From Thermodesulforhabdaceae bacterium (GTDB lineage: Bacteria; Desulfobacterota; Syntrophobacteria; Syntrophobacterales; Thermodesulforhabdaceae), in assembly GCA_037482015.1 (NCBI GenBank), contig JBBFKT010000001.1, positions 186,001 to 250,000 on the forward strand: DNA of 64,000 nucleotides, written 5' to 3'. Positions 24,931 through 39,776 of this stretch are shown here, in pieces (the stretch's first letter is position 1; every line of letters begins with the position of its first letter). The notes under the pieces were generated by a model. That model ran no database searches, was not told where the DNA came from, and worked only from the letters and a program-made list of their open reading frames with translations. The translations under genes and the position numbers were made by a program.

Positions 24931-26847
24931 TCACTCTAAAGGAATAATTTCGTCCGGTTTTATTTCTTTAGATTCATCAGCCTTTGTAATTTGGAGTTTT
25001 GGTATGTCCTTATTCTTTGTTATTGCTGGTAAAGTTTCTACAGCAACAGATCTTTCTGTGCTTCCGTAAACCATAACCACCAAGCCATCAATGAGTTCCT
25101 GAATGGATCTTATTTCTTGAAGCACTAAATTTGCCGCACTGGCCAATTCTTCTGAATGTGCTGCACTTTGTTGAACTATAATATTTACTTCAGAAATCGC
25201 TTTGTTGATTTGAACAACTCCATCGGCCTGCTCGGATGATGCAGAAGATATTTCCTTCGCTAAGGATTCTACCTTTGTAGCCATTTCTGCGAGCTGAATG
25301 AAGGCTTTATGGGTTTCTTGGACAAAATTTGAGCCTTCCTTCACTCTGGATATAGTGGTTTCTATCAAATGAGCCGTTTGTTTAGCCGCTTCAGCTGCCC
25401 TCATTGCTAGAGCTCTTACCTCATCAGCCACAACTGCAAAACCAGCCCCCGCTTCCCCTGCTCGAGCCGCTTCCACTGCTGCATTCAGAGCTAGAAGATT
25501 GGTTTGAAAAGCTATTTCATCTATAGTCTTAATGATTTTTGATGTTTCTTCACTGGCTTTTGAAATGTCTTCCATAGAGTTTATAAGTCTTTCCATGGCG
25601 GTGTTGGCTTCTTTCACGACAGAATTGGTTTCGGTAATAAGATGTTCTGCTTCTCGGGCATTCTCGGCATTTTGCCTTGTCATGGCGGACATTTGTTCAA
25701 GGGATGATGAAGTTTCCTCAATGGCTGACGCCTGTTTTGTGGTTCCCTCCGCGAGATCTCTGCTTGATTCGGATACCTGCATTACTGCCGAGGTTATCTC
25801 CACCAATCCGTCATCCACAGCCTTTGCTAGCCTTTTCACAGGAACTGTAATAGAACGACTTATCAAAAAGCTACTGATAATCATAATGGCTATAGCTACA
25901 GCAACTATAGTCAACCCTGTAAGCGTGTTTGTCTTCTTGCTTGTATTAAGAGCTTTGCTGATCTCTTCAGAGGTTTCAGCACCCAGAACAAGCAGTTTTT
26001 CTCTGATCTCTTCAAGTTCCTTGCTCAGTCTGGCCTGCTCCTTCCACTCTTTGTGAATGTTTGAGACCAGAGATTCGTATTCAGGGGCAACCTTCAGCAT
26101 ATATTCAAGATAGGCTTCAAACACTTCAAGGCTGCTGTCTTTTTTTCCCGTTTTTAAGGATTTTAAGTTTTTAATTATTCCTTCTAAATTTTTGATCTCT
26201 TTTTTTACATCCTCATAGTTTTGAGAAAATGTGGTTTGAAATTCCTCTTCTTTGCCATACATTATGAGATCGTCGCTTAGAGACATGAAGATAGTGTTTA
26301 ATCCATTTATGATGGTTTTGTTAGATACTGCAATTGATGAGTATTCAATAGGTGCTTCTCCCTGAGTGATGTATGCCATGGATATGAGTCCTTCAATGGT
26401 CTTTGTCATGTCCAGTGATTTCTTATTCATGTCTGAAAGCAGAGACCGAAGGCTATTCTGTTCTCCCACAATTTTTTCGGCTACAGCCTGTGTGCTAGTG
26501 AAAACTTCTTCATATTTTTTGAGAATATCCTCCAGCCTGGCTATGCGATCTGAATAATCTGAGGATTTCGCTTTTAAAGCACTTATGAACTCCTTCAGAT
26601 TTTTGACTTTTGAAACGACAAGTTCGGCGACATCCCCTTTGTAGGTTCTCAAGTAGTCCTTTTCACTCACTATGACGTTTAGCAGCTTCCCTTGAAATTT
26701 ATAAACATCGCTGGTGAGATCATATTGGCTGTAAATCTTAGTGCTGAAGTACTGAGAAGAGGCGAAAGCCACTATATATAACAGGACAGCTGACAGAAGC
26801 TGTATGGTCAGTTTTGTGGATATTCTCATTTTTTGAAAAACCTCCAA
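24931..26847 (-). CDS. Methyl-accepting chemotaxis protein, helical-bundle sensor
   Basis: 638-residue transmembrane chemoreceptor. A membrane helix at ~12-30 is followed by a ~270-residue, mostly helical periplasmic domain (HBM/4-helix-like). A second helix is near 308-330 ([20 protein letters not shown]). The cytoplasmic signalling hairpin tip reads [40 protein letters not shown]. There is no C-terminal CheR-docking pentapeptide. GGAGG precedes the ATG. It lies downstream of a secreted Cache protein, from which it is separated by a terminator. Confidence 0.92.
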
Positions 26848-26940: not shown

Positions 26941-27447
26941 TCATTTGAGGGATTTGTTCAGGTCTTCCACAGAAGACTGATCATCATAGATGCCCGCTAC
27001 AACTGCGTGATTTGTTCCTTCCACGTTGAGGGAATATGACAGCTTTCTTGAAGGAGTTTGCTCACCTGGCTTGGGCCACCAGTATTCAACCCACCCTCCC
27101 TTGGGATTTTTGGCAGCCTCACAGATCTCACTGGAAAAAAGCTTACCCTTCGCATCCTTTATGGCTATCACGTTTTTCCCAATGAGCTGGGGCTGCATCG
27201 GATGGGCTAGGACTGTCGCCTGAGCACAGTCAACCACGTAGATGTAACTGTCCTTCCAAACCCATTTTCCGTCCTTTTTGTTGAACTCTTCCAGTGCTTT
27301 GTTGCCTTCTTTAGCCAGGAACTGAGCTGCTTCTCTCACTTTCTGAACCACTTCCTCTGGTGGGGCTTTTTCCCCGGCAAAGAGAGCGGAAACAGACAAC
27401 AATGAGAGGAATAACCCAATGACCATCAAGAAACTCAGTTTTTTCAT
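26941..27447 (-). CDS. Secreted single-Cache-domain protein
   Basis: 168 residues: a signal peptide (MKKLSFLMVIGLFLSLLSVSALFAG) followed by one Cache_2-type ligand-binding domain (KDSYIYVVDCAQATVLAHPMQPQLIGKNV and GGWVEYWWPKPGEQTPSRKLSYSLNVEGTNHAVVAGIYDD). There is no membrane anchor or output domain, so it is probably a free periplasmic small-molecule binder. The ATG at 27447 follows GGAGGGG by 7-8 bases and is preferred over the upstream extension to 27510. Its place just before a chemoreceptor gene suggests a ligand-presenting role, which is inference. Confidence 0.82.
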   Translation of the reverse strand: MKKLSFLMVIGLFLSLLSVSALFAGEKAPPEEVVQKVREAAQFLAKEGNKALEEFNKKDGKWVWKDSYIYVVDCAQATVLAHPMQPQLIGKNVIAIKDAKGKLFSSEICEAAKNPKGGWVEYWWPKPGEQTPSRKLSYSLNVEGTNHAVVAGIYDDQSSVEDLNKSLK

Positions 27448-27510
27448 GATAAACCCCTCCTTTGATTTTGTGTAATTCTTTTGATTGTAAAAAACAAAGC
27501 TTTTCCTCAT

Positions 27511-28970: not shown

Positions 28971-30488
28971 CTAAAAGCTAACTCTTTTGAATGGATATTC
29001 GGTTCTTTCATAAAGCATGAAGTATCCATAGCGCCCAGCTAACTTAAACCTGGGAAGATAGCCAAAAACCGCCTCAGGCCATCTCCCCGCTATACGATCT
29101 TCCGATGGAGTTTTTCCCTTGCCAGCATACACAACCACATAGTCCACAAATAAATGGGGGGACGATAGAACCGTCTCGTATTCATACTGATAGGGCAAAA
29201 CAAACCTTCTGGCATCTCCTTCAATGAAGACCACTGGAAAGCCTTTTGTATCATCTATCAGAACGGAAGTTCCTGGACGAATATGTTTTACAATAGCTCG
29301 AGCATGTCCCACGGTTGAATTTTCCAAAGGCTTGACTAATGCTTGCTTGAAAGCCTGTTCCTCGGGGTGTTGGTTTCCTAGCAGAGTCCAGTTAAAGATT
29401 AAAGACATAATCATGCTTGCCGCAAAAAGCCTATCTATCCAGGGCAGTTTTGCCTCGCCCGGAAAATTTACCCAGAAAGATAAAGCTGCAACCAAAAACA
29501 AAATGGAATAACTCATGGAATGCTCATGAGTCGCACCAATCAACGCATCTGCCCATATGAGAATAAACGGTGCGGCAAGAATGGAAGGGGTTACTCTGCA
29601 TTTTTGAAATCCAATTTTCCACTGTCTTATAAACGCAACAAAGATGGGCAAAACGAAGGGAAGCAGGACTTTTGTGCGTTCAAAAAGATAGATCGTAGCG
29701 CCTTTAAGATCTCCGGCAGGATTCCACCCAGATGTTGCTCCCATGGAACTTAGCCAGGCTCTGAAAAAATAAAGTGGATCCTTCATGAACACCCAGTTGA
29801 GATAACTCCACCCACCAAGAAAGAAAAGCGATGGGAAGAAAGCAATTATGGCAACGGACATCTTTTGTCCAATATCCTGTTTTTCTTTGGTTATTATGAA
29901 GGGCAGGATAAGAACCGGAATAAGAAACATTGCCTGAAACCGAAGAAAAAACAGAAAAGCCGTCATCATGCCAAAGAGAAGAAGATCTATGGTGTAGTGA
30001 AATCGACAATAGCGATATAGATGATGAACTAATTGCAAGAACACGCCTATAAAAAGGCAGAAACTTTGGTGTTCTGACAGAAGGAAAAGGGATGCCGGGG
30101 AAGCCAGAACATACAGGAGCACAACCAAGGCAATGCTCAATGGAATGCGCCCTATAGAGTGCGCCTTAAAGGTGAAAAATAGAAGTAAACTCGCTGAAAG
30201 AGCTCCCACGAAAGCTGAAGAAATAAATGGATTTTGAAATATTAGAACGAATACGTATATCAAAGGAGGATACACGAAGCCGAGGTTTTCTAAACGAGGC
30301 GGATAGCCGTGAAATACAAGCATAGCCTTTTCGCCTAGCATGAGAAGCTCGCCGTAAGCATAGTTATTTCTAAAAGCGGTTGTGTTGAGAAGCAGCAGAA
30401 ATAGAAATAAACTCAGAAATACGCAAATCCCCAGAAAAATCCTGGTGGCTTTATGTGGAAGGGGTGGTTTTGACTTTTGTAATTCCAT
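28971..30488 (-). CDS. Polytopic membrane glycosyltransferase-like protein (GT39/ArnT-like topology)
   Basis: 505-residue integral membrane protein with about 11-12 hydrophobic segments and a C-terminal ~100-residue soluble domain (SVLIDDTKGFPVVFIEGDARRFVLPYQYE). A Pro/Tyr-rich first loop (YGELLMLGEKAMLVFHGYPPRLENLGFVYPPLIY) resembles lipid-linked sugar transferases of the GT-C class, though no diagnostic catalytic Asp-Glu pair can be assigned with confidence. It overlaps the 3' end of the synthase gene by 38 bases and is last in the polysaccharide operon. A sugar-donor or modification role is inferred. Confidence 0.65.
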   Translation of the reverse strand: MELQKSKPPLPHKATRIFLGICVFLSLFLFLLLLNTTAFRNNYAYGELLMLGEKAMLVFHGYPPRLENLGFVYPPLIYVFVLIFQNPFISSAFVGALSASLLLFFTFKAHSIGRIPLSIALVVLLYVLASPASLFLLSEHQSFCLFIGVFLQLVHHLYRYCRFHYTIDLLLFGMMTAFLFFLRFQAMFLIPVLILPFIITKEKQDIGQKMSVAIIAFFPSLFFLGGWSYLNWVFMKDPLYFFRAWLSSMGATSGWNPAGDLKGATIYLFERTKVLLPFVLPIFVAFIRQWKIGFQKCRVTPSILAAPFILIWADALIGATHEHSMSYSILFLVAALSFWVNFPGEAKLPWIDRLFAASMIMSLIFNWTLLGNQHPEEQAFKQALVKPLENSTVGHARAIVKHIRPGTSVLIDDTKGFPVVFIEGDARRFVLPYQYEYETVLSSPHLFVDYVVVYAGKGKTPSEDRIAGRWPEAVFGYLPRFKLAGRYGYFMLYERTEYPFKRVSF

Positions 30489-32394
30489 GTTGCGTTTTTT
30501 CCCAGTAGAAGGGTTTTGAGAAAAGTTGCCATAAAGCTTTGTAGGCGGCTAAGGAATGAAAGAATAACCAGTAAAAGGGGTTTATTAAACTGTAGGGCAT
30601 GAGATGATGGAGTTTTCGCCTGAAGACTGCGATCATGTTAAGATATACACCAAGGAAGTTTCCACCCAGTAAGTTAAAAAGTCCCCAGTAGACAATTATA
30701 GGTGGTAAGAATGGATCAAAGATCTTAGTCTGAGTACATATCCAGTAGATGAAAACACTCCATACAATGGGAACTGATAGAAACATAAGTGGGGTGCCTG
30801 TCACAAAGAGTTGGAAACTCATCCATTTTGTAAATCCCAGGGTTTTGAGCATACGAAGGGGGTGTCTGTTATAAACCAGGGATGTTTGCATGTAACCTTT
30901 GATCCATCTGGATCTTTGTCGTATCCAGTTCCAGTAGCGAGAATTGGCTTCTTCGTATGTCGTTGAGTTAATTACTCCGACGGTCATCCCGTGAGCAGTT
31001 GCTCGGATGCCTAGATCTGCATCTTCCGTGACATTAAAAGGATCCCATCCCCCAAGAAGTCTTAAATATTCTACCTTGAAGTGATTGCTTGTTCCCCCTA
31101 AAGGTATTGGAAGTTTCAAACGATCGAGCCCCGGAAGAAGATAATCAAACCAGTAGGAGTACTCCAGCGTAAACATACGTGTTATGAAGTTTTCCGTAGC
31201 GTTAAAGTAATTTAGAGCAGCTTGAATACATATACAGGATGGGTCGTTCTTGGAAAATCCAACAATGGCTTTTTTTAGCTGATCTGGATCCGGTATGTCT
31301 TCTGCATCGTAAATGGTAAGATAGGTCCCTCGAGCGAAAAACAACCCATAATTGCAGGCTTTAGGTTTTGTTTTGGGAATGGCGTGAGGAATTATAAGAA
31401 ATCGCCAGTTACCGGGGGGTTTTGCTTTCTTTGCCGCTTCCAGAGTAGCTTTGTCGTCTTCTTCCAGGAGAAGGATGATGTCTAGTTTGTTTGGGGGGTA
31501 GTCCATCGCCTTTAGGGCTTTTACAAGATGTCCTATAACCTCTGGCTCTTTGTAAACAGGCACAAGGATTGTGTAAACAGGTAGATTTTCGTCTTTTAGA
31601 CTTTCTACCTCTTCTTTACTTACCGGCTCTGATATTTCATGTTTTGCCCCCACCAGGCTGAGGACGGTTTTGAACAATATAAGAACAGAAAAGGTTGTCT
31701 GTATTATTCCGAATATAGAAGCTACGAGTGATTTAATATCTAAGTAACACCATATGAGAACCAGATACAGGAAAATCCCCATAGCAATTACTTGGTTGCG
31801 ACTAAAAACCTTTATGGCAGATTCTTCAGGATTTCTATAAAAAAGGCCGTATATAGCCAGATCCGCCAGCTCGGTGTTCCATATGTGTTGAACCAGTCTG
31901 GTAAAATCCAGATCTGTTATTAACCACGGAACTATTTTTCTGACGTCTAATTTATCCTTGATTATGTTAAGCGCTTCATCAAATTTTTCACCCGGATAAT
32001 CCGTTAAGATAACAACTTCATCGGGCAGCGTCTTGAAGAAAGGTATTATGTGATATTGTATTGCTTCGGAAGAATCTAATTGCTTTATGAGACTTTTATC
32101 GGCTCTTTCGTCAAATTCTTGTGTTGTAAAGTTCCAGAAAGGCATTCTGTAATGTTCTGCTAAAGCCTGGAAAAGCTCCAGGCGTGTTATCCAGCCGAGA
32201 GTCAGCAAAATCCATCCCAGCCGTCCTCCCCGCTCTTTCTGGATATTAAGAGCTTCAGTGAGTTGGTCCTCTGTTATGAGACCCCGTTTCAGTAGAATCT
32301 GTCCTACGGGTTCATGTGTTGAGGACGGCTTAGTATGAGACCCAGAATGAGCCGTAAAGCCCGCCTCCTGCACCTGTATCTTCTCCCCATGCAT
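30451..32394 (-). CDS. Family 2 glycan synthase with N-terminal MshEN c-di-GMP-binding domain
   Basis: 647-residue processive-type glycosyltransferase. Residues 29-97 form an MshEN (T2SSE_N) domain with two tandem motifs (PVGQILLKRGLITEDQL and RLGWILLTLGWITRLELFQAL), known to bind c-di-GMP in MshE and NfrB. Membrane helices follow at ~208-258. The GT2 domain has ILVPVYKEPEVIG (~286), IYDAEDIPDP (373-376), TEDADLG (466-471) and RQRSRW (502-507). Further membrane helices follow, with no PilZ domain. The ATG overlaps the barrel gene by 65 bases; a GTG at 32373 with GGGGAG ~9 bases upstream is a good alternative start. Confidence 0.9.
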   Translation of the reverse strand: MHGEKIQVQEAGFTAHSGSHTKPSSTHEPVGQILLKRGLITEDQLTEALNIQKERGGRLGWILLTLGWITRLELFQALAEHYRMPFWNFTTQEFDERADKSLIKQLDSSEAIQYHIIPFFKTLPDEVVILTDYPGEKFDEALNIIKDKLDVRKIVPWLITDLDFTRLVQHIWNTELADLAIYGLFYRNPEESAIKVFSRNQVIAMGIFLYLVLIWCYLDIKSLVASIFGIIQTTFSVLILFKTVLSLVGAKHEISEPVSKEEVESLKDENLPVYTILVPVYKEPEVIGHLVKALKAMDYPPNKLDIILLLEEDDKATLEAAKKAKPPGNWRFLIIPHAIPKTKPKACNYGLFFARGTYLTIYDAEDIPDPDQLKKAIVGFSKNDPSCICIQAALNYFNATENFITRMFTLEYSYWFDYLLPGLDRLKLPIPLGGTSNHFKVEYLRLLGGWDPFNVTEDADLGIRATAHGMTVGVINSTTYEEANSRYWNWIRQRSRWIKGYMQTSLVYNRHPLRMLKTLGFTKWMSFQLFVTGTPLMFLSVPIVWSVFIYWICTQTKIFDPFLPPIIVYWGLFNLLGGNFLGVYLNMIAVFRRKLHHLMPYSLINPFYWLFFHSLAAYKALWQLFSKPFYWEKTQHGITKVKTTPST

Positions 32395-33163
32395 GAGAAT
32401 ATGCTGTAACTACAAAGGAAAGATGAGAAGAAAGTCTGAAACGACCGGATACAGAAAGTTTCAAAAGTTTGTAGTCGGGCGTAAGAGTAATATTCTCGCC
32501 TATGTATTTGGTTGATCCGTTACCAAGACCCCAGTGAAGTTCGGCTCCCCCTATGAGTTGCAAAAAATCCAGGACGTCATAACCTGCACTGAGCTTCGCT
32601 CGAATTTGGTCCGATGGATAGCCAATGTAAAATCTGGGTCCTCCTGCCAGATCAATGAAGCCGTATCGATCTAAGAAGCGAAAGGAAGTTCCGTATTGAA
32701 GAAGCCCTTCCAAAGCATATCTTCCATACCCAAGCCTTGGGTTATCTTCAATATCATAACCCAGAGGAACCACAACCATTAGCTGGGACGAAACAACCTG
32801 AGTTCCATCAGTCCATAGAAGATGCCGCCACCCCGCTTCAAGGTCGGTTAGTCCGTCATTTGTGGCGGACTTGATTCCCTGATCGTCATCAAGCCAATCG
32901 TAGAATACGTTTAAAACCAGAGTATCAGTGGATGTTAAACCATACTCTAGATACGGATTGAGTTCCACCTTAGTAAAGGTTCCTCCACGCTTTCTTTCAT
33001 TTCCATTACTGTCGAAGTAATGATTTGTCTTATAGTAGTAAAGTATCGTAGAGAAGAAGAAGCTTCCTTTTGGTTGTAACCATGCACCAGCCCATACGTT
33101 GCAAGAAAATACCCATATGACAAGAAACATACAAAAACCGATGCTAATCTTACGCCACTTCAC
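32330..33163 (-). CDS. Outer-membrane beta-barrel protein of the polysaccharide locus
   Basis: 277 residues with a signal peptide (KISIGFCMFLVIWVFSCNVWAG) and alternating-strand sequence rich in Tyr/Trp/Gly ending in aromatic SFWVSY, typical of an outer-membrane barrel. Phrases such as LEYGLTSTDTLVLNVFYDW and DGLTDLEAGWRHLL fit the transporter/MetA-pathway barrel group. It lies 21 bases after the BcsB-like gene and overlaps the synthase gene, so it is a candidate export pore in place of a BcsC-type protein. That role is inference. Confidence 0.8.
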   Translation of the reverse strand: MKWRKISIGFCMFLVIWVFSCNVWAGAWLQPKGSFFFSTILYYYKTNHYFDSNGNERKRGGTFTKVELNPYLEYGLTSTDTLVLNVFYDWLDDDQGIKSATNDGLTDLEAGWRHLLWTDGTQVVSSQLMVVVPLGYDIEDNPRLGYGRYALEGLLQYGTSFRFLDRYGFIDLAGGPRFYIGYPSDQIRAKLSAGYDVLDFLQLIGGAELHWGLGNGSTKYIGENITLTPDYKLLKLSVSGRFRLSSHLSFVVTAYSHAWGEDTGAGGGLYGSFWVSY

Positions 33164-33184
33164 TTTAATTCTCCTTGTTAAAGT

Positions 33185-35323
33185 TTAGGTAAGTTTTCTG
33201 TAAACATACCAGAGGAACAGAAACAGCAAAACACCCAAAATTAAGAAGCCATAAACCCTGTACTTAGTCCAGTAGTAGGAAATGCCTTTTTTGCCTGGCA
33301 TGACAACCTGCATCTTTTCACCGACTTCAAAATTTCTCCATTCTGACCCCGAACAATTTCCGTCGAAACATATAGAACTTACTTGTGTCCACACGGCAAC
33401 ATTGGCACTTCCTTCCATGCGTAGCCCCTTCAAGAATTCTGTCGGTGATATTGAATTTGCTATCGAATCAGATATTGAGAGCATCCCCACGATTGTCTTA
33501 TTTTTCCCTCGAAAGACCTGCCACACACCCACGTTATCGTTTGTGTTTACATCAAGGATTGTTTGCCCGGTTTGGGGATTTTTAATCAGGAATTGCTCGG
33601 AAGTATTTACAAGAGGATCGAAAATGGCCGTTTGAGATGCCTTAAGAACAGCTATTGTAAAGGGAGTTACTGAATTTTCAGAGAAATTGTCCAGTGTTAT
33701 GGCTCTAACGAATAAAGGTTTTTGCCTTAGTTTTCCAAGTTTTTCCGTTAGTTCCATAGCTAGATTAACGAAGTTAGAGCTTGATTCTCCAAGAATCATC
33801 AAGCCTTCTCCAGAAAGAAGTCCCGGGAATGTGTCGAAATTTTCTTGAACGAAAGATGTTCCTATTACTGTGAAAAATGAATCCGGAGAGACGGATACCT
33901 CCATATCGGGAAAGCTTCCTTTGCATTCTCCTCGGTTGGTAAAGTAGGAAAAAGTAACGTCCAAGGTATTTCTCGTTTGTAAAAACCTCGATGGGAGCTC
34001 AAAAGAAAAGCTCTCTTCTTTTGATTCCCCCGAAGTAATAAGCTTCGAAGCCACAAGAACTCCATTAAGCCTTACTTTTATGAAGGCTCTGTCTTCTTTA
34101 GCAATAGGTGTATGATGGTAAATAATCGTCACCATTACTCTCGACGGAAAGTTGCCAAAAGAAGCTATGGAAAATGGGATGGAAAATTGCAAATCCCCAA
34201 TGCCACGAAGAATAGGGGGAATTATTCCCAGATCAGAAAATTTAATTTCTTTTTCTGGCGCGGTTTTGTCTTTTTCATCTTGTAAGACCTGAACCTTATT
34301 CCAGTTAGAAAGAGACATGGAAGGAGAACTGAAATTCCTGGCCATAGTAGAAAGTCCCTGCGGAGAAATCACAATATCTCTTCCTATTATTTTTGCGTCC
34401 TCTGCGCCTTCTTTCAGGATGATGTTGGGACTTTTCAGTGAGTAACCACCGGAAGTAAACATACTATCAGTTCTGTAAGAGTGGATAGCTCCAATGAGAG
34501 ATGCGAAGTTGAACAGTCCCGTTAGTTCCTCATGTTTAATTTGTCCTGATGGTAGAAACAGGTTTAATCTTTCGAGAGGATTTTTTAAAGCATCGTAAAA
34601 ACTACCGATAACGGGGTAATAAAGTATCTCGAAGAAGCTGGTTGGTTCCAGAATGATCCATGCGTTACCCGTTTGATCATCAACGCATTTGTCGCCTGTG
34701 ATGGTTATAGAAGTGGTAAGAGTTATATCCAGAAAGTCTCCTATATTGGCATTGTCAATTTCGGGGAAATCAACGATCAGGGGAGACTTGAATGTCTGAT
34801 CTAAAGCCACAACCTTGATGGGTCTGTTTTCAACATAGACGGTAAGCGTTGACGGTTTTTGAAAAATACCTTGCGGAAAGGTTATGTAGAAAACCCCCTT
34901 TGAGTTTTTCAATGACATATTCTGAGTCCAGGGAATGTGAATTCTTGTCGTTCCCTGAATGCCTCGAATCTGAATGGGAAGACGGTATCCCAAGTCGGCA
35001 AGCGTCATACTTTTAGCTACCGGAATAAAAACAGCGTCGCTTGGATATGAGTCAAGCTGTTGTGGTGTTGCCGAATCGTCTAATTTCTTGAGTTCCCCCA
35101 GAGCATTTTCCATGATTTTTTGATCATCAAAAATCCCAAAGAATAGCAAGTCCTTAGAAGAAACTTTTTTAGGTTTCCACAGTCCATATATATAAAGTGC
35201 TTTGTTTATCGTTTCTGAATTTACTCTGATAGTCCACACATTTCTATGTTCTGGAGCTTCGGCAAATGCGTTTAATGTCACAAGAAAGAGCAACAATAAA
35301 CCGCATATTCTTATTTTTTGCAC
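33185..35323 (-). CDS. BcsB-like periplasmic polysaccharide synthase subunit
   Basis: 712 residues: signal peptide (KIRICGLLLLFLVTLNAFA), a large beta-rich periplasmic domain with BcsB features (TLADLGYRLPIQIRG, GVFYITFPQGIFQKPSTLTVYVENRPIKVVAL, GDKCVDDQTGNAWIILEPTS), and a C-terminal membrane helix (VYGFLILGVLLFLFLWYVYRKLT). The start is GTG at 35323, because GGAGGT lies 7 bases before it; the frame is open to 35386 but without a ribosome site. In cellulose synthesis BcsB guides the emerging glucan. Here it heads an operon with a barrel protein and an MshEN synthase. Confidence 0.85.
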   Translation of the reverse strand: MQKIRICGLLLLFLVTLNAFAEAPEHRNVWTIRVNSETINKALYIYGLWKPKKVSSKDLLFFGIFDDQKIMENALGELKKLDDSATPQQLDSYPSDAVFIPVAKSMTLADLGYRLPIQIRGIQGTTRIHIPWTQNMSLKNSKGVFYITFPQGIFQKPSTLTVYVENRPIKVVALDQTFKSPLIVDFPEIDNANIGDFLDITLTTSITITGDKCVDDQTGNAWIILEPTSFFEILYYPVIGSFYDALKNPLERLNLFLPSGQIKHEELTGLFNFASLIGAIHSYRTDSMFTSGGYSLKSPNIILKEGAEDAKIIGRDIVISPQGLSTMARNFSSPSMSLSNWNKVQVLQDEKDKTAPEKEIKFSDLGIIPPILRGIGDLQFSIPFSIASFGNFPSRVMVTIIYHHTPIAKEDRAFIKVRLNGVLVASKLITSGESKEESFSFELPSRFLQTRNTLDVTFSYFTNRGECKGSFPDMEVSVSPDSFFTVIGTSFVQENFDTFPGLLSGEGLMILGESSSNFVNLAMELTEKLGKLRQKPLFVRAITLDNFSENSVTPFTIAVLKASQTAIFDPLVNTSEQFLIKNPQTGQTILDVNTNDNVGVWQVFRGKNKTIVGMLSISDSIANSISPTEFLKGLRMEGSANVAVWTQVSSICFDGNCSGSEWRNFEVGEKMQVVMPGKKGISYYWTKYRVYGFLILGVLLFLFLWYVYRKLT

Positions 35324-35480
35324 AGTTCTTACCTCCGATGCAGACATTCTTGCCATCGTTTGATCTGCCAAAGTATCATGAATCAAATTTTATTTACGCT
35401 GTCTTAATTGACTTTTTACTATGAGTTTTCAACTGAGATATTTTAATAAAATCAAAAGAGAGATTTTCAGTCATGCGAAG

Positions 35481-37262
35481 TTAATCCTCCCCAATGGCTA
35501 TTATGTCGAGATCCTTAACTATTGTGGAAATTCCTATTGACTGATGCCTGGTTTGTTCGGCTATAGCTGCTAATTCCTCGGACTTTGCAGCCACTTCTTG
35601 AGTTGTCAAATCGATTTGGATAACAGCTTCTCTGAGTTGCGCTATGCCCTGTGCCTGTTCATTAGAAGCAGTAGATATTTGATTAACTAATTCCACCGCA
35701 TTACCCAGTTTATCAGACATGTGAGAAAAATTAGCATTAATTTCTTCAACAAACATTTTCCCATTTTTAGCTTTCTCGATCATAGCTTCAATTGTTTCTG
35801 ATATGCTCTTTGCCGATTCAGCGGCGTTCATGGCAAGCTTTCTTACTTCGTCTGCGACAACGGCAAAACCAACTCCCGCATCTCCTGCTCTGGCAGCTTC
35901 TACGGCTGCGTTGAGAGCCAGCAAGTTAGTTTGAAAGGCAATTTTGTCAATAATCTTTATAACATCAGCAATCTTATCGCTTGCCTCATTTATGTCTGAC
36001 ATGTTCGTTGTAAGTTTGCGTATCTCTTTTTTGAAATTATCTACTATCAATTTTATTTCTTGCATTAACTTATCTGCATCTATGGCGTTAGAAGCGTTCT
36101 GTTTGGCCATAGAAGATATTTCCTCTAAGGATGCCGACATCTCTTCCAGCGCAGAAGCCTGATCAGTGGCTCCTTTTGAAAGCGAGCGACTGGAAGAAGA
36201 AAGCTCTTCGGCGTATTCGTTCAAACTTGAGGAATGTTGGTTCAAGTCTTTGGTTATTCGGATAATTGGGTTAATTATCATCCTTTTTAGGGCAAAACCT
36301 ATTGCTGCAATAAGAATGAAAGCTAGTACTCCTGCAATAAGGCTGGAAGTTACAAGGGATGATTTGATCATTTGTTGTTCCAGCTTAGGAACAGCAATTA
36401 ATAATGAAAAATCTTTTACCTCATTACCCAGAACCTTAAGACTGAATTCTTTTGCAATAAAAGAATTTTTCCCGCTTTTTAAATCTCTCGCCTCTTTTCC
36501 ATTAAAACTCATAAACTTGTCTACATCATCATGGGAAAGGGTAGAACCATATACCAGCAATTTTTGATTTTGATAATAACGTGCATCTACCTGATATTTT
36601 TTCTTTATCGAATCATCAATATCTTTATCTTTCTTCATTAAAACTGCAACGTCGGCATCTAAAAGTTTCTTTAATTCTAAAAGGTTTTCGGACTTGGGAT
36701 AGATTCCAACTTTTACAAGTCCAGCAAACCGATTCTCAAAAAAGATCGGAGCTACTGCGTCAAGGCTTAGCAATCCAGTAGAAGTGGATACATCTATATT
36801 TGCCTTAGGTTTTTTTGTATTTAAGACTTCTCCGAATATTTGTGTTTTTGACTTATCATCCCCATAAAAGTCGGGATTGTGTGCTCGAAGGACAATAATG
36901 CCTTTATCGTTGGTGACTTCCACAGTGTTGACATCTTTATCCTGATTTTTAAGTTTCTCGTAGATGGGGATCAAAACCATTTTTAGGGCTTCTCGGTCAC
37001 CTGTAAGAAGGGCTCTACCAATGTTTGGATCTTCGTCAATTTGAGTTGAATATCTACTGAGTTTTGATAATTTCTCTGCAAAAAAGAACTCTGACATTTC
37101 CTTCATTCTTGGTAGTCTTTCGTTGTAAATCTTAAAATAGGTTTTCGATGTCAAAAAATATATAACAACTTGATTAAGTGCGAATAAAACCAGCAGGCAC
37201 GCCGTGAAGATAACCAGAAGCTTGGCTTGGAGAGATTTTTTGGAGATAGAAAAACCAATCAT
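35481..37262 (-). CDS. Methyl-accepting chemotaxis protein with Cache-like periplasmic sensor
   Basis: 593-residue chemoreceptor. Membrane helix ~13-36; periplasmic domain with Cache-type strands (NTVEVTNDKGIIVLRAHNPDFYGDD, LLSLDAVAPIFFENRFAGLVKVGIYP); second helix near 303-328; signalling hairpin with [40 protein letters not shown]. No CheR-docking pentapeptide. It is separated from the polysaccharide operon by ~150 AT-rich bases, so a separate promoter is likely. The ligand is unknown. Confidence 0.92.
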   Translation of the reverse strand: MIGFSISKKSLQAKLLVIFTACLLVLFALNQVVIYFLTSKTYFKIYNERLPRMKEMSEFFFAEKLSKLSRYSTQIDEDPNIGRALLTGDREALKMVLIPIYEKLKNQDKDVNTVEVTNDKGIIVLRAHNPDFYGDDKSKTQIFGEVLNTKKPKANIDVSTSTGLLSLDAVAPIFFENRFAGLVKVGIYPKSENLLELKKLLDADVAVLMKKDKDIDDSIKKKYQVDARYYQNQKLLVYGSTLSHDDVDKFMSFNGKEARDLKSGKNSFIAKEFSLKVLGNEVKDFSLLIAVPKLEQQMIKSSLVTSSLIAGVLAFILIAAIGFALKRMIINPIIRITKDLNQHSSSLNEYAEELSSSSRSLSKGATDQASALEEMSASLEEISSMAKQNASNAIDADKLMQEIKLIVDNFKKEIRKLTTNMSDINEASDKIADVIKIIDKIAFQTNLLALNAAVEAARAGDAGVGFAVVADEVRKLAMNAAESAKSISETIEAMIEKAKNGKMFVEEINANFSHMSDKLGNAVELVNQISTASNEQAQGIAQLREAVIQIDLTTQEVAAKSEELAAIAEQTRHQSIGISTIVKDLDIIAIGED

Positions 37263-37592: not shown

Positions 37593-39776
37593 TTATCTAT
37601 AAGCTTTTATTTTTACCGAGCAGTTTACGTAATTAGCATAAGAGGAATATCCTTTAGAGTTTTGTGAGTAATCCGTTGTTAAATATTTTGGAACAGGGAT
37701 GACAAAAGGTGTTTTTTCTTGTGGGAGTTGATGATAATAATCGCCGGAGTTGTTAGAGTCTGACGAATCTACCGCAGTGATGATATGTTTTGATTTACCG
37801 TTTTTTGTTATTGATTTGATTCCGTTAACGAAAAGTACTAATTCATAAACAATGCTTTTTATTTCTTTAACATGATTTGAAGCGTCTTTTGATGTGTCTG
37901 CTAGCACTTCTGCGCTGGAGGCAGTATTCTGAATTATTTCATTTAACTGATTAAAGGCTGTAGTCATATAGGAAATATTGCGACTGACTTCCTCCACTGC
38001 TCGCACAACATTACTAATGCTACTACCTATATTCTTTGCATTACCGGCAACTGTTTTGAAATTATCATATAATTCTTTAACAGTATCTACTGTCTTTGAT
38101 AGATTTGCAATATTAGCTTCAAGTTTCCTTTGGGTAATAGATGCAGCCTCCGTGGTCTTGATCGCCAAATTTCTTACTTCATTAGCTACCACCGCAAACC
38201 CCGCTCCTGATTCTCCTGCTCTTGCTGCTTCTATGGTAGCGTTAATGGCAAGAAGATTGGTCTGAAAAGCTATTTCATCTATGACCTTAACAATTTTTAC
38301 CATTTCATCTTCATCGGATCCAACTCTGATCATTAGTTGTGTTACTTCTTCCAGAGATTTCAGGGAGTTTTCTATTTCCTGGATACTGGATAAGACCTCT
38401 TTGCCGACTTCTTTGCTCAAGTTCTCTATATTCTTAGAATTAGATGCAATATCTTGTAATGATGCAGTCAATTCTTCCATACTTGATGCCTGTTCACTGG
38501 CACTATCTGCCATGGATTGAGCGGTTTGATAAACTTGTTCCGAAGCAATAGCAATGTCCTTCGCACCTGTTTCAAGCCGTCTAGAAACTGAATCGATCAT
38601 TTTGTTAATTCTCCTGTAGAATAATAGTGAAACAAATAGAGAGATAAGCGTTACAACGAAAATTAATATGGTGGTATTGCGAGTAACCTTTTTCGACATT
38701 GCCTCAATTTTAGCTGGAACCATAAGAAATTCATCTTCGTAGGCTCCTGCAATAATTATCCAATCCCAGGGAGCAAAGTATGTAATGAGGCTTACTTTTT
38801 TCCGTGGAGCTGATTCCCCTGGATTTTGCCAAAAATAGCTATATTCTCCAGTTTCCCCTTCTTTCAAAGAATGAGCAATTTTGACTATATCTTGAATTAC
38901 CAGATTTCCTTTGTGGTCTTTGACGTTCCATATGTTCTCTCCGTCTCGCTTGCCGTCCTTAGAAATTATATAATTACCCTTTGAGTCAATCACTGCCACA
39001 TAACCTGTTTTTCCTATTTTTATATTCATAATAAAACTACGCAGTTTTTTTACATTTTCTTCCGGAATTCCAAAATATAAAGCTCCTATGACTTTTCCGC
39101 TTTCATCGAATATTGGATCGTAAGCTGTAGTATACCAGCTGTTAACTACCCAGGCTCCTCCGACATACCTTTTTCCAGCAAGTATAGTAGAAACCACCTT
39201 GTTTGGAGTGCCATCAGGCATTTTTGCAGGAATGTGAGTGCCTACAGCTCTTTCTCTTTTCGATGTCATTACGTTAGTTGCTACTCTCAGCATGTCACCC
39301 TGGTCGTTCATCCGTTGAAATATAGTACAGGTTCCACCTATCATTTCTCTGACTTCATCTACTAAGGGGGTTGGAGTCCCTGGATCAACGTTGTAAGGTA
39401 TTGGACTGCCTCCAAGTAACACTTTGGGTAGTGTAACCGTCTGAATATGACCGGTAAATTGATTTTTAGTTTGCCATGTAACGTATTCATTTGAAGAAGA
39501 TGATAAAATTCCTTTATTTTTCATTATTAACTTGGCGACATTTAAACCTGCTTCGACTTGTTTCTGAAGAACCTCCTGTTGAACAGAGATTGCATTGTAA
39601 ACACCCTGGATAATGTGGTCTAAGTCAGATTTGGTGATAGCTACACTTTCTTCTTTTGCTAGTTTTGTAATGTGTTTAATTTCCGAATTAGCATACCAGC
39701 CAATTATTACCAAAGGGATTGATGTTAATAATATACTGACAATCATCAATTTAGTTTTTAGTGATAGGGTTTTCAT
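37593..39776 (-). CDS. Methyl-accepting chemotaxis protein with double Cache sensor
   Basis: 727-residue chemoreceptor. Membrane helix ~10-28. The periplasmic domain has a membrane-distal Cache_3-type part ([55 protein letters not shown]) and a proximal Cache_2-type part ([29 protein letters not shown]...[16 protein letters not shown]). The second helix is near 375-393. The signalling hairpin reads [40 protein letters not shown]. The proximal Cache half is similar in style to the secreted Cache protein at 26941. The ligand is unknown; dCache receptors often sense organic acids or amino acids. Confidence 0.92.

Follow-up and report, generated by a model that had tools for sequence, protein, structure and literature searches.

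How would a polysaccharide synthase that lacks a PilZ domain be placed under the control of cyclic di-GMP (c-di-GMP)? The question is raised by a minus-strand locus of a Thermodesulforhabdaceae bacterium, located in the 64,000-nucleotide stretch analysed here (the window; contig 1, 186001-250000, of a 2.7 Mb genome whose nearest named relatives, among the matches listed, are Syntrophobacterales metagenome-assembled genomes, MAGs). The genes follow one another in the order bcsB-like, barrel, GT2 synthase and GT-C (Table 1), and all four were found where a sequence-only reading of this DNA had located them; we set the start of the bcsB-like gene at a TTG (35386), that reading having chosen a GTG at 35323. 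The overlaps between the barrel and GT2 genes (65 nt) and between the GT2 and GT-C genes (38 nt) fit a single operon. We propose, with a probability of about 0.78, that the four proteins make up a synthase-dependent exopolysaccharide machine that would be switched on by c-di-GMP through an MshEN domain. On the evidence of sequences and models, production and export of a sticky sugar polymer by the sulfate-reducer-like host probably occur only when c-di-GMP docks at the N-terminal end of the polymerase. The anatomy of the locus is real and well supported: the domains and folds, the intact active-site and contact residues, the gene order, a barrel restricted to diderms and contact residues that decay in genomes poor in GGDEF are all directly supported.

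The N-terminal domain of the synthase is, in sequence and in model, a complete MshEN domain. The NCBIfam profile NF053729 (c-di-GMP-binding MshE-related domain) matches residues 30-80 (E 1.8e-17, 62.9 bits for a cut-off of 38); the Pfam MshEN profile PF05157 is below its cut-off on the window synthase (17.6 vs 23.1) and matches 43 of 50 synthase family members, with a best E of 6e-20. PilZ, whose absence the sequence-only reading had already noted, was found by Pfam search neither in the window synthase nor in the 50 family members. The same reading had placed two tandem MshEN motifs at residues ~29-97; the motifs stand and their boundaries do not, since two 24-residue motifs occupy residues 29-52 and 58-81 around a canonical five-residue spacer (53-57), and a C-subdomain extends the domain to about residue 172. 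The protein is thus composed of a disordered segment (1-24), the MshEN domain (27-172), transmembrane (TM) helices from residue 199, a GT-A core at about 270-500, and TM and interface helices to 626, followed by WEKTQHG. In the AlphaFold2 model (mean predicted local distance difference test, pLDDT, 90.8), the MshEN fold is present with its four-helix N-subdomain and alpha/beta C-subdomain, and residues 27-172 superpose on c-di-GMP-bound MshE (5htl chain B; Z 18.2, 2.0 Å, 138 residues aligned) and on c-di-GMP-bound Thermus PilF (Z 17.7). The c-di-GMP contacts defined by Wang et al. 2016, who also noted MshEN-glycosyltransferase fusions (PMC5013675), are kept here, with both motif glycines and the leucine cluster in place, so that profile and model both bear out the domain suspected from the sequence. 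Position 1 of the first motif is P, not R, and the c-di-GMP binder NfrB of E. coli likewise has P opening its first motif. We infer from these sequence and model features that the window synthase is gated by c-di-GMP.

A different origin could be envisaged for this domain, namely that it is left over from the N-domain of a secretion ATPase, EpsE-like, with a structural or docking role and no c-di-GMP sensing, the synthase being constitutive or transcriptionally controlled. Koeksoy et al. 2021 indeed took the N-terminal IPR007831 of Sfz2, the corresponding synthase of iron-oxidising bacteria, for an EpsE-like domain and looked for c-di-GMP motifs in other places (PMC8250860); degenerate MshEN domains such as XpsE fail to bind (PMC5013675), and Bacteroidota, Ignavibacteria and others have kept the domain while lacking its contact residues. 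We nevertheless consider a relic unlikely, as the XpsE-type losses are absent here, no ATPase domain was found in the synthase by Pfam search, and the contacts are selectively conserved in GGDEF-bearing genomes.

This last argument comes from a scan of named genomes that returned at least 525 synthase relatives, of which 80 loci were kept for analysis and their source genomes searched for GGDEF domains. A site was called intact when the glycine of each MshEN motif was kept, which was the case in 56 loci, the other 24 being broken. GGDEF matches were entirely missing from 10 of the 24 broken-site genomes vs one of the 56 intact-site genomes (Fisher p 1e-5), absences that are soft because many source genomes are MAGs; the median GGDEF count was 1 and 7, respectively. 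From GGDEF-rich to GGDEF-poor genomes, identity to the consensus falls from 75% to 20% at the contact residues, compared with 42% to 28% at the other positions of the N-domain and 78% to 70% in the catalytic part. Leaving out the Bacteroidota clade, the contacts still drop to 26%. Across this set, retention of the contact residues goes with the presence of GGDEF proteins, and the residues decay in genomes that encode none or one; these GGDEF-poor lineages constitute a natural experiment on the receptor site.

Several observations weigh against a c-di-GMP-gated synthase. Position 24 of the second motif is H, not Q, and we know of no biochemically characterised GT2 with an N-terminal MshEN domain. 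When site loss and GGDEF content are treated as independent evolutionary events, about seven site changes are found on the tree and two to three of five independent pairs go in the expected direction, none in the opposite one; the direction is right, and the independent changes are too few to bring significance within reach. The first motif is broken in some cyanobacteria and in Acaryochloris despite 4-17 GGDEF genes. The N-domain, though decayed, is retained in most GGDEF-poor lineages, and it may therefore have another role as well. Finally, neither of the nearest relatives (L025 and L026), a relative of the same genus among them, has a GGDEF gene adjoining its locus. As a separate observation, the cyanobacterial members L063, L064, L068 and L073 (764-795 aa) are extended at the N-terminus, their first motifs are variant or broken, and their genomes encode several GGDEF proteins; these members possibly have a different receptor arrangement.

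The sign of the response is a further matter, since sequence and fold predict binding and not its sign, and the MshEN domain sits at the opposite end from the PilZ domain of BcsA and the MshEN domain of NfrB. Binding might then inhibit the synthase, or merely place it by a cyclase or the pilus machinery. We regard this as less probable still than a relic domain, given that the characterised c-di-GMP-bound synthases are activated: to our knowledge this holds for all such polysaccharide synthases, BcsA, PgaCD, Alg44/Alg8 and NfrB.

The catalytic part of the synthase has the marks of a processive GT2 enzyme, namely the DxD-type, TED and QxxRW motifs together with membrane helices. Its core matches Pfam PF13632 (E 2e-22), and model residues 213-643 fit BcsA (4p00, Z 23.7 over 388 residues; E. 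coli BcsA, Z 26.1) as well as hyaluronan synthase (HAS), with Z 23-26 for BcsA and HAS. The motifs DAED, TED (TEDAD) and QRSRW are intact, and they are nearly invariant in over 80 relatives. The C-terminal W-E-K-T-x-H-G (window 30484-30504, synthase residues 631-637) is also almost invariant in the family and may be the equivalent of a gating loop; NfrB has WDKTTH right before its MshEN domain.

The fourth protein is, by its predicted structure, a true GT-C fold, as the sequence-only reading had supposed of this membrane protein. No Pfam family matched its 505 residues; its AlphaFold2 model (pLDDT 91.5, predicted template-modelling score 0.91) retrieved ALG3 (Z 15.1), Pmt4 (14.8) and ArnT (14.0) in the VIA fold search, in which the top 47 rows, from Z 15.1 to 6.6, contain nothing but GT-C enzymes and a fragment of an oligosaccharyltransferase, and the first unrelated row has Z 3.9. 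PMT_2 was matched in five of 41 homologues, and the Geobacillus homologue carries the annotation 'glycosyltransferase family 39'. Among the acids of the first outer loop, where the catalytic residue of a GT-C enzyme would be expected, E53 is found in 24 and E67 in 29 of the 41 homologues, neither being invariant. On the basis of the fold, the enzyme probably takes a polyprenyl-phosphate sugar at the outer face of the membrane. As a polyprenyl-linked donor is implied by the GT-C fold, the GT2 protein could be a single-sugar transferase to a lipid carrier, like dolichol-phosphate-mannose synthases, feeding the GT-C enzyme, and the pair would glycosylate surface proteins or lipids. The core scores highest in VIA against PcManGT, which is annotated as a mannosyltransferase (Z 28.4), and most loci have the GT2 and GT-C genes side by side, also where bcsB was not found. 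Such a function seems improbable to us, the combination of QxxRW, TED, a BcsA/HAS-like interface and TM helices marking processive synthases, and the BcsB partner and, in diderms, the barrel fitting polymer export.

The identity of these two export partners was assessed as follows. The BcsB-like protein matches PF03170 above the curated cut-off (E 1.5e-17, 63.7 bits vs 21), and a profile built from 33 members of its family matches solved BcsB (E 2.5e-21). The barrel protein matched no family in the Pfam search, and its family profile weakly matches the MetA-like barrel 4rl8 (E 0.002). Binding itself, an activating and not inhibiting effect, the path of export and the task of the GT-C enzyme are what we infer, and we hypothesise that the machine works as follows. 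A diguanylate cyclase would raise the level of c-di-GMP, which would be bound, in the cytoplasmic N-terminal part of the synthase, between the two 24-residue motifs. The resulting movement could travel into the first TM helix along a long helix (161-187) that connects the MshEN domain to the synthase core in the model, and would open or order the processive BcsA/HAS-like active site. The polymer would leave the membrane next to the tail-anchored BcsB-like protein and cross the outer membrane by way of the small barrel, while the GT-C enzyme may add sugars from a polyprenyl-phosphate donor, at the outer face, to the polymer or its anchor.

The conservation of the gene order, one of the checks named by the sequence-only reading, was found in the neighbourhoods of the 80 loci. 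These span more than 15 phyla, including Thermodesulfobacteriota, Aquificota, Nitrospinota, Chloroflexota, Thermomicrobiota, Bacillota, Deinococcota, Cyanobacteriota, Bacteroidota, Actinomycetota, Synergistota and Atribacterota. Homologues were recognised in 57 open reading frames for bcsB and 70 for GT-C; in most loci bcsB lies directly before the synthase gene and the GT-C gene directly after it, and the GT2 and GT-C genes adjoin in most loci, including those where bcsB was not found. The barrel family occurs in 28 loci, in diderm phyla only, and none was found at the Chloroflexota, Thermomicrobiota, Actinomycetota or Bacillota loci of the set, as expected for an outer-membrane pore. Within the order to which the window belongs the locus is patchy, with a full homologue above 60% identity in four of 60 relatives. 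The proposal offers a testable mechanism for a widespread family, the relatives being mostly annotated just 'glycosyltransferase'. The plasmid search gave 11 records, most of them with the same bare annotation. One copy of the locus (L111, CP128455.1:33746-40483), on a conjugative Geobacillus stearothermophilus plasmid, comprises bcsB, MshEN-GT2, GT39 and sugar nucleotidyltransferase genes between transposase and integrase genes, which indicates that the module can move. Viral contigs yielded one 40-residue fragment and no viral version was seen among them. An actinobacterial Schumannella MAG (L087:7947-14173) has two tandem pairs of MshEN-like GT2 and GT-C genes, both with broken sites and with no recognised bcsB.

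The combination of an N-terminal MshEN domain with a BcsB-like partner had seemed unfamiliar to the sequence-only reading. The arrangement is confirmed; the gene combination is not new, since it has been published in silico, though not as a characterised system, as the sfz/xag-like stalk cluster. Kato et al. 2015 (PMC4643136) and Koeksoy et al. 2021 (PMC8250860) described bcsB-like, xagB-like GT2 and unknown ~505-aa genes as a candidate stalk cluster in iron-oxidising bacteria, and the sfz/sfb cluster is known from stalk-forming Zeta- and Betaproteobacteria (PMC4643136, PMC8250860); in a 2025 paper sfz1-4 serve as markers of stalks, with no further mechanism. Compared by published description (gene order, lengths and motif spacing), sfz1 is BcsB-like and sfz2 a GT2 with N-terminal T2SSE/MshEN-type IPR007831, as here; sfz3 measures 1499-1535 bp (~505 aa), against 505 aa for the GT-C protein, and the TED-to-QxxRW spacing is 37 both in Sfz2 (486/523) and here (456/493). 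Sfz2 is ~40 aa longer than the window synthase, the GH10-like sfz4 and sfz5-6 are missing from the window locus, and the sfz reports mention no barrel gene between bcsB and the synthase. The sfz papers named neither a c-di-GMP-binding MshEN gate nor a GT-C enzyme. New relative to these papers are a structure-based reading of the gate, the assignment of the fourth protein to GT-C, a distribution across phyla in which the barrel follows the type of envelope, and the joint decay of contact site and GGDEF content. The comparison suggests that sfz2 may encode a c-di-GMP-gated synthase and sfz3 a GT-C enzyme, both candidate genes for twisted iron stalks. At about even odds, it can further be surmised that these loci form a phylum-spanning class of polysaccharide machines gated by c-di-GMP, including the iron-oxidiser stalk makers. 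A BcsA-like synthase would there carry MshEN at its N-terminus in place of PilZ, the polymer would be decorated by a GT-C enzyme outside the membrane, and the gate would decay in lineages lacking c-di-GMP signalling, the synthase being retained.

The NfrBA-YbcH system of E. coli (PMC8669469) similarly has a GT2 fused to a c-di-GMP-binding MshEN domain and an outer-membrane export partner; in NfrB the MshEN domain activates the GT2, and mutating it hampers function (PMC8669469). The two MshEN domains are 33% identical over 128 aa and the W-x-K-T-x-H motif is common to both synthases. NfrB differs in its C-terminal MshEN domain, a GT core 23% identical and another TED-QxxRW spacing, and its system has no BcsB-like protein or GT-C gene, NfrA carrying TPRs. 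The opposite position of the domain and the divergent core suggest two separate fusions of MshEN to a GT2 synthase, and the window synthase was rejected as an NfrB (MshEN N-terminal; NF008411 46.7 bits vs a cut-off of 1170). BcsAB shares the GT2 core, the TM/interface arrangement, TED and QxxRW and the BcsB partner, and differs in having PilZ at the other end instead of MshEN, a BcsC TPR scaffold and no GT-C enzyme; assignment to BcsA was likewise rejected (no C-terminal PilZ; TIGR03030 57 bits vs 699). The xagABC(D) genes of Xanthomonas, which contribute to biofilm in an rpfG mutant (PMC3609779), have an xagB-like GT2 in common with the locus and are linked to it through the naming of Kato et al. 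alone. Leptothrix lthB, described as a GT8 protein, was discarded as a relative, as was the sole MshEN protein of Leptospira, which is GspE and not a glycosyltransferase.

Table 1. Features of the locus and of its surroundings, in window coordinates.
Feature	Position	Strand	Basis or remark
BcsB-like periplasmic subunit, 733 aa from TTG	33185..35386	-	PF03170 match, family profile; N-terminal signal, C-terminal TM helix
Small outer-membrane beta-barrel without TPR domain, 277 aa	32330..33163	-	signal peptide by eye
MshEN-GT2 synthase, 647 aa	30451..32394	-	NF053729, AlphaFold2 model, catalytic motifs
53-residue unit predicted to bind c-di-GMP, synthase residues 29-81	32152..32310	-	PVGQILLKRGLITEDQLTEALNIQ / KERGG / RLGWILLTLGWITRLELFQALAEH
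GT-C-fold polytopic glycosyltransferase, 505 aa	28971..30488	-	AlphaFold2 model and fold search
PAS-GGDEF diguanylate cyclase, 299 aa	27906..28805	-	PF00990 E 2.8e-42; candidate partner, not conserved beside locus
EAL-CBS-GGDEF protein, 606 aa	40007..41827	-	PF00563 E 1.3e-51, PF00571, PF00990

The window genome has seven GGDEF matches, two of which are near the locus, as the sequence-only reading had pointed out. The PAS-GGDEF gene lies 166 bp downstream, with an intact GGEEF and a degenerate I-site (RxxN). The EAL-CBS-GGDEF gene, which had been put at ~5 kb upstream, is 4.6 kb away beyond two chemotaxis receptor genes, and its product has intact EAL motifs and GGDDF. A dedicated, operon-linked cyclase was rejected as a conserved feature, the relative of the same genus having no adjacent GGDEF gene. 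Conservation in the closest relatives does not support a dedicated pairing of the locus with either the GGDEF or the EAL neighbour. GGDEF genes were observed near eight synthase loci vs 1.8 expected, a modest enrichment that includes sister taxa. On the same strand, the locus is flanked by three chemotaxis receptors with differing sensor parts (24931-26847, 35481-37262 and 37593-39776) and by a secreted single-Cache protein (26941-27510).

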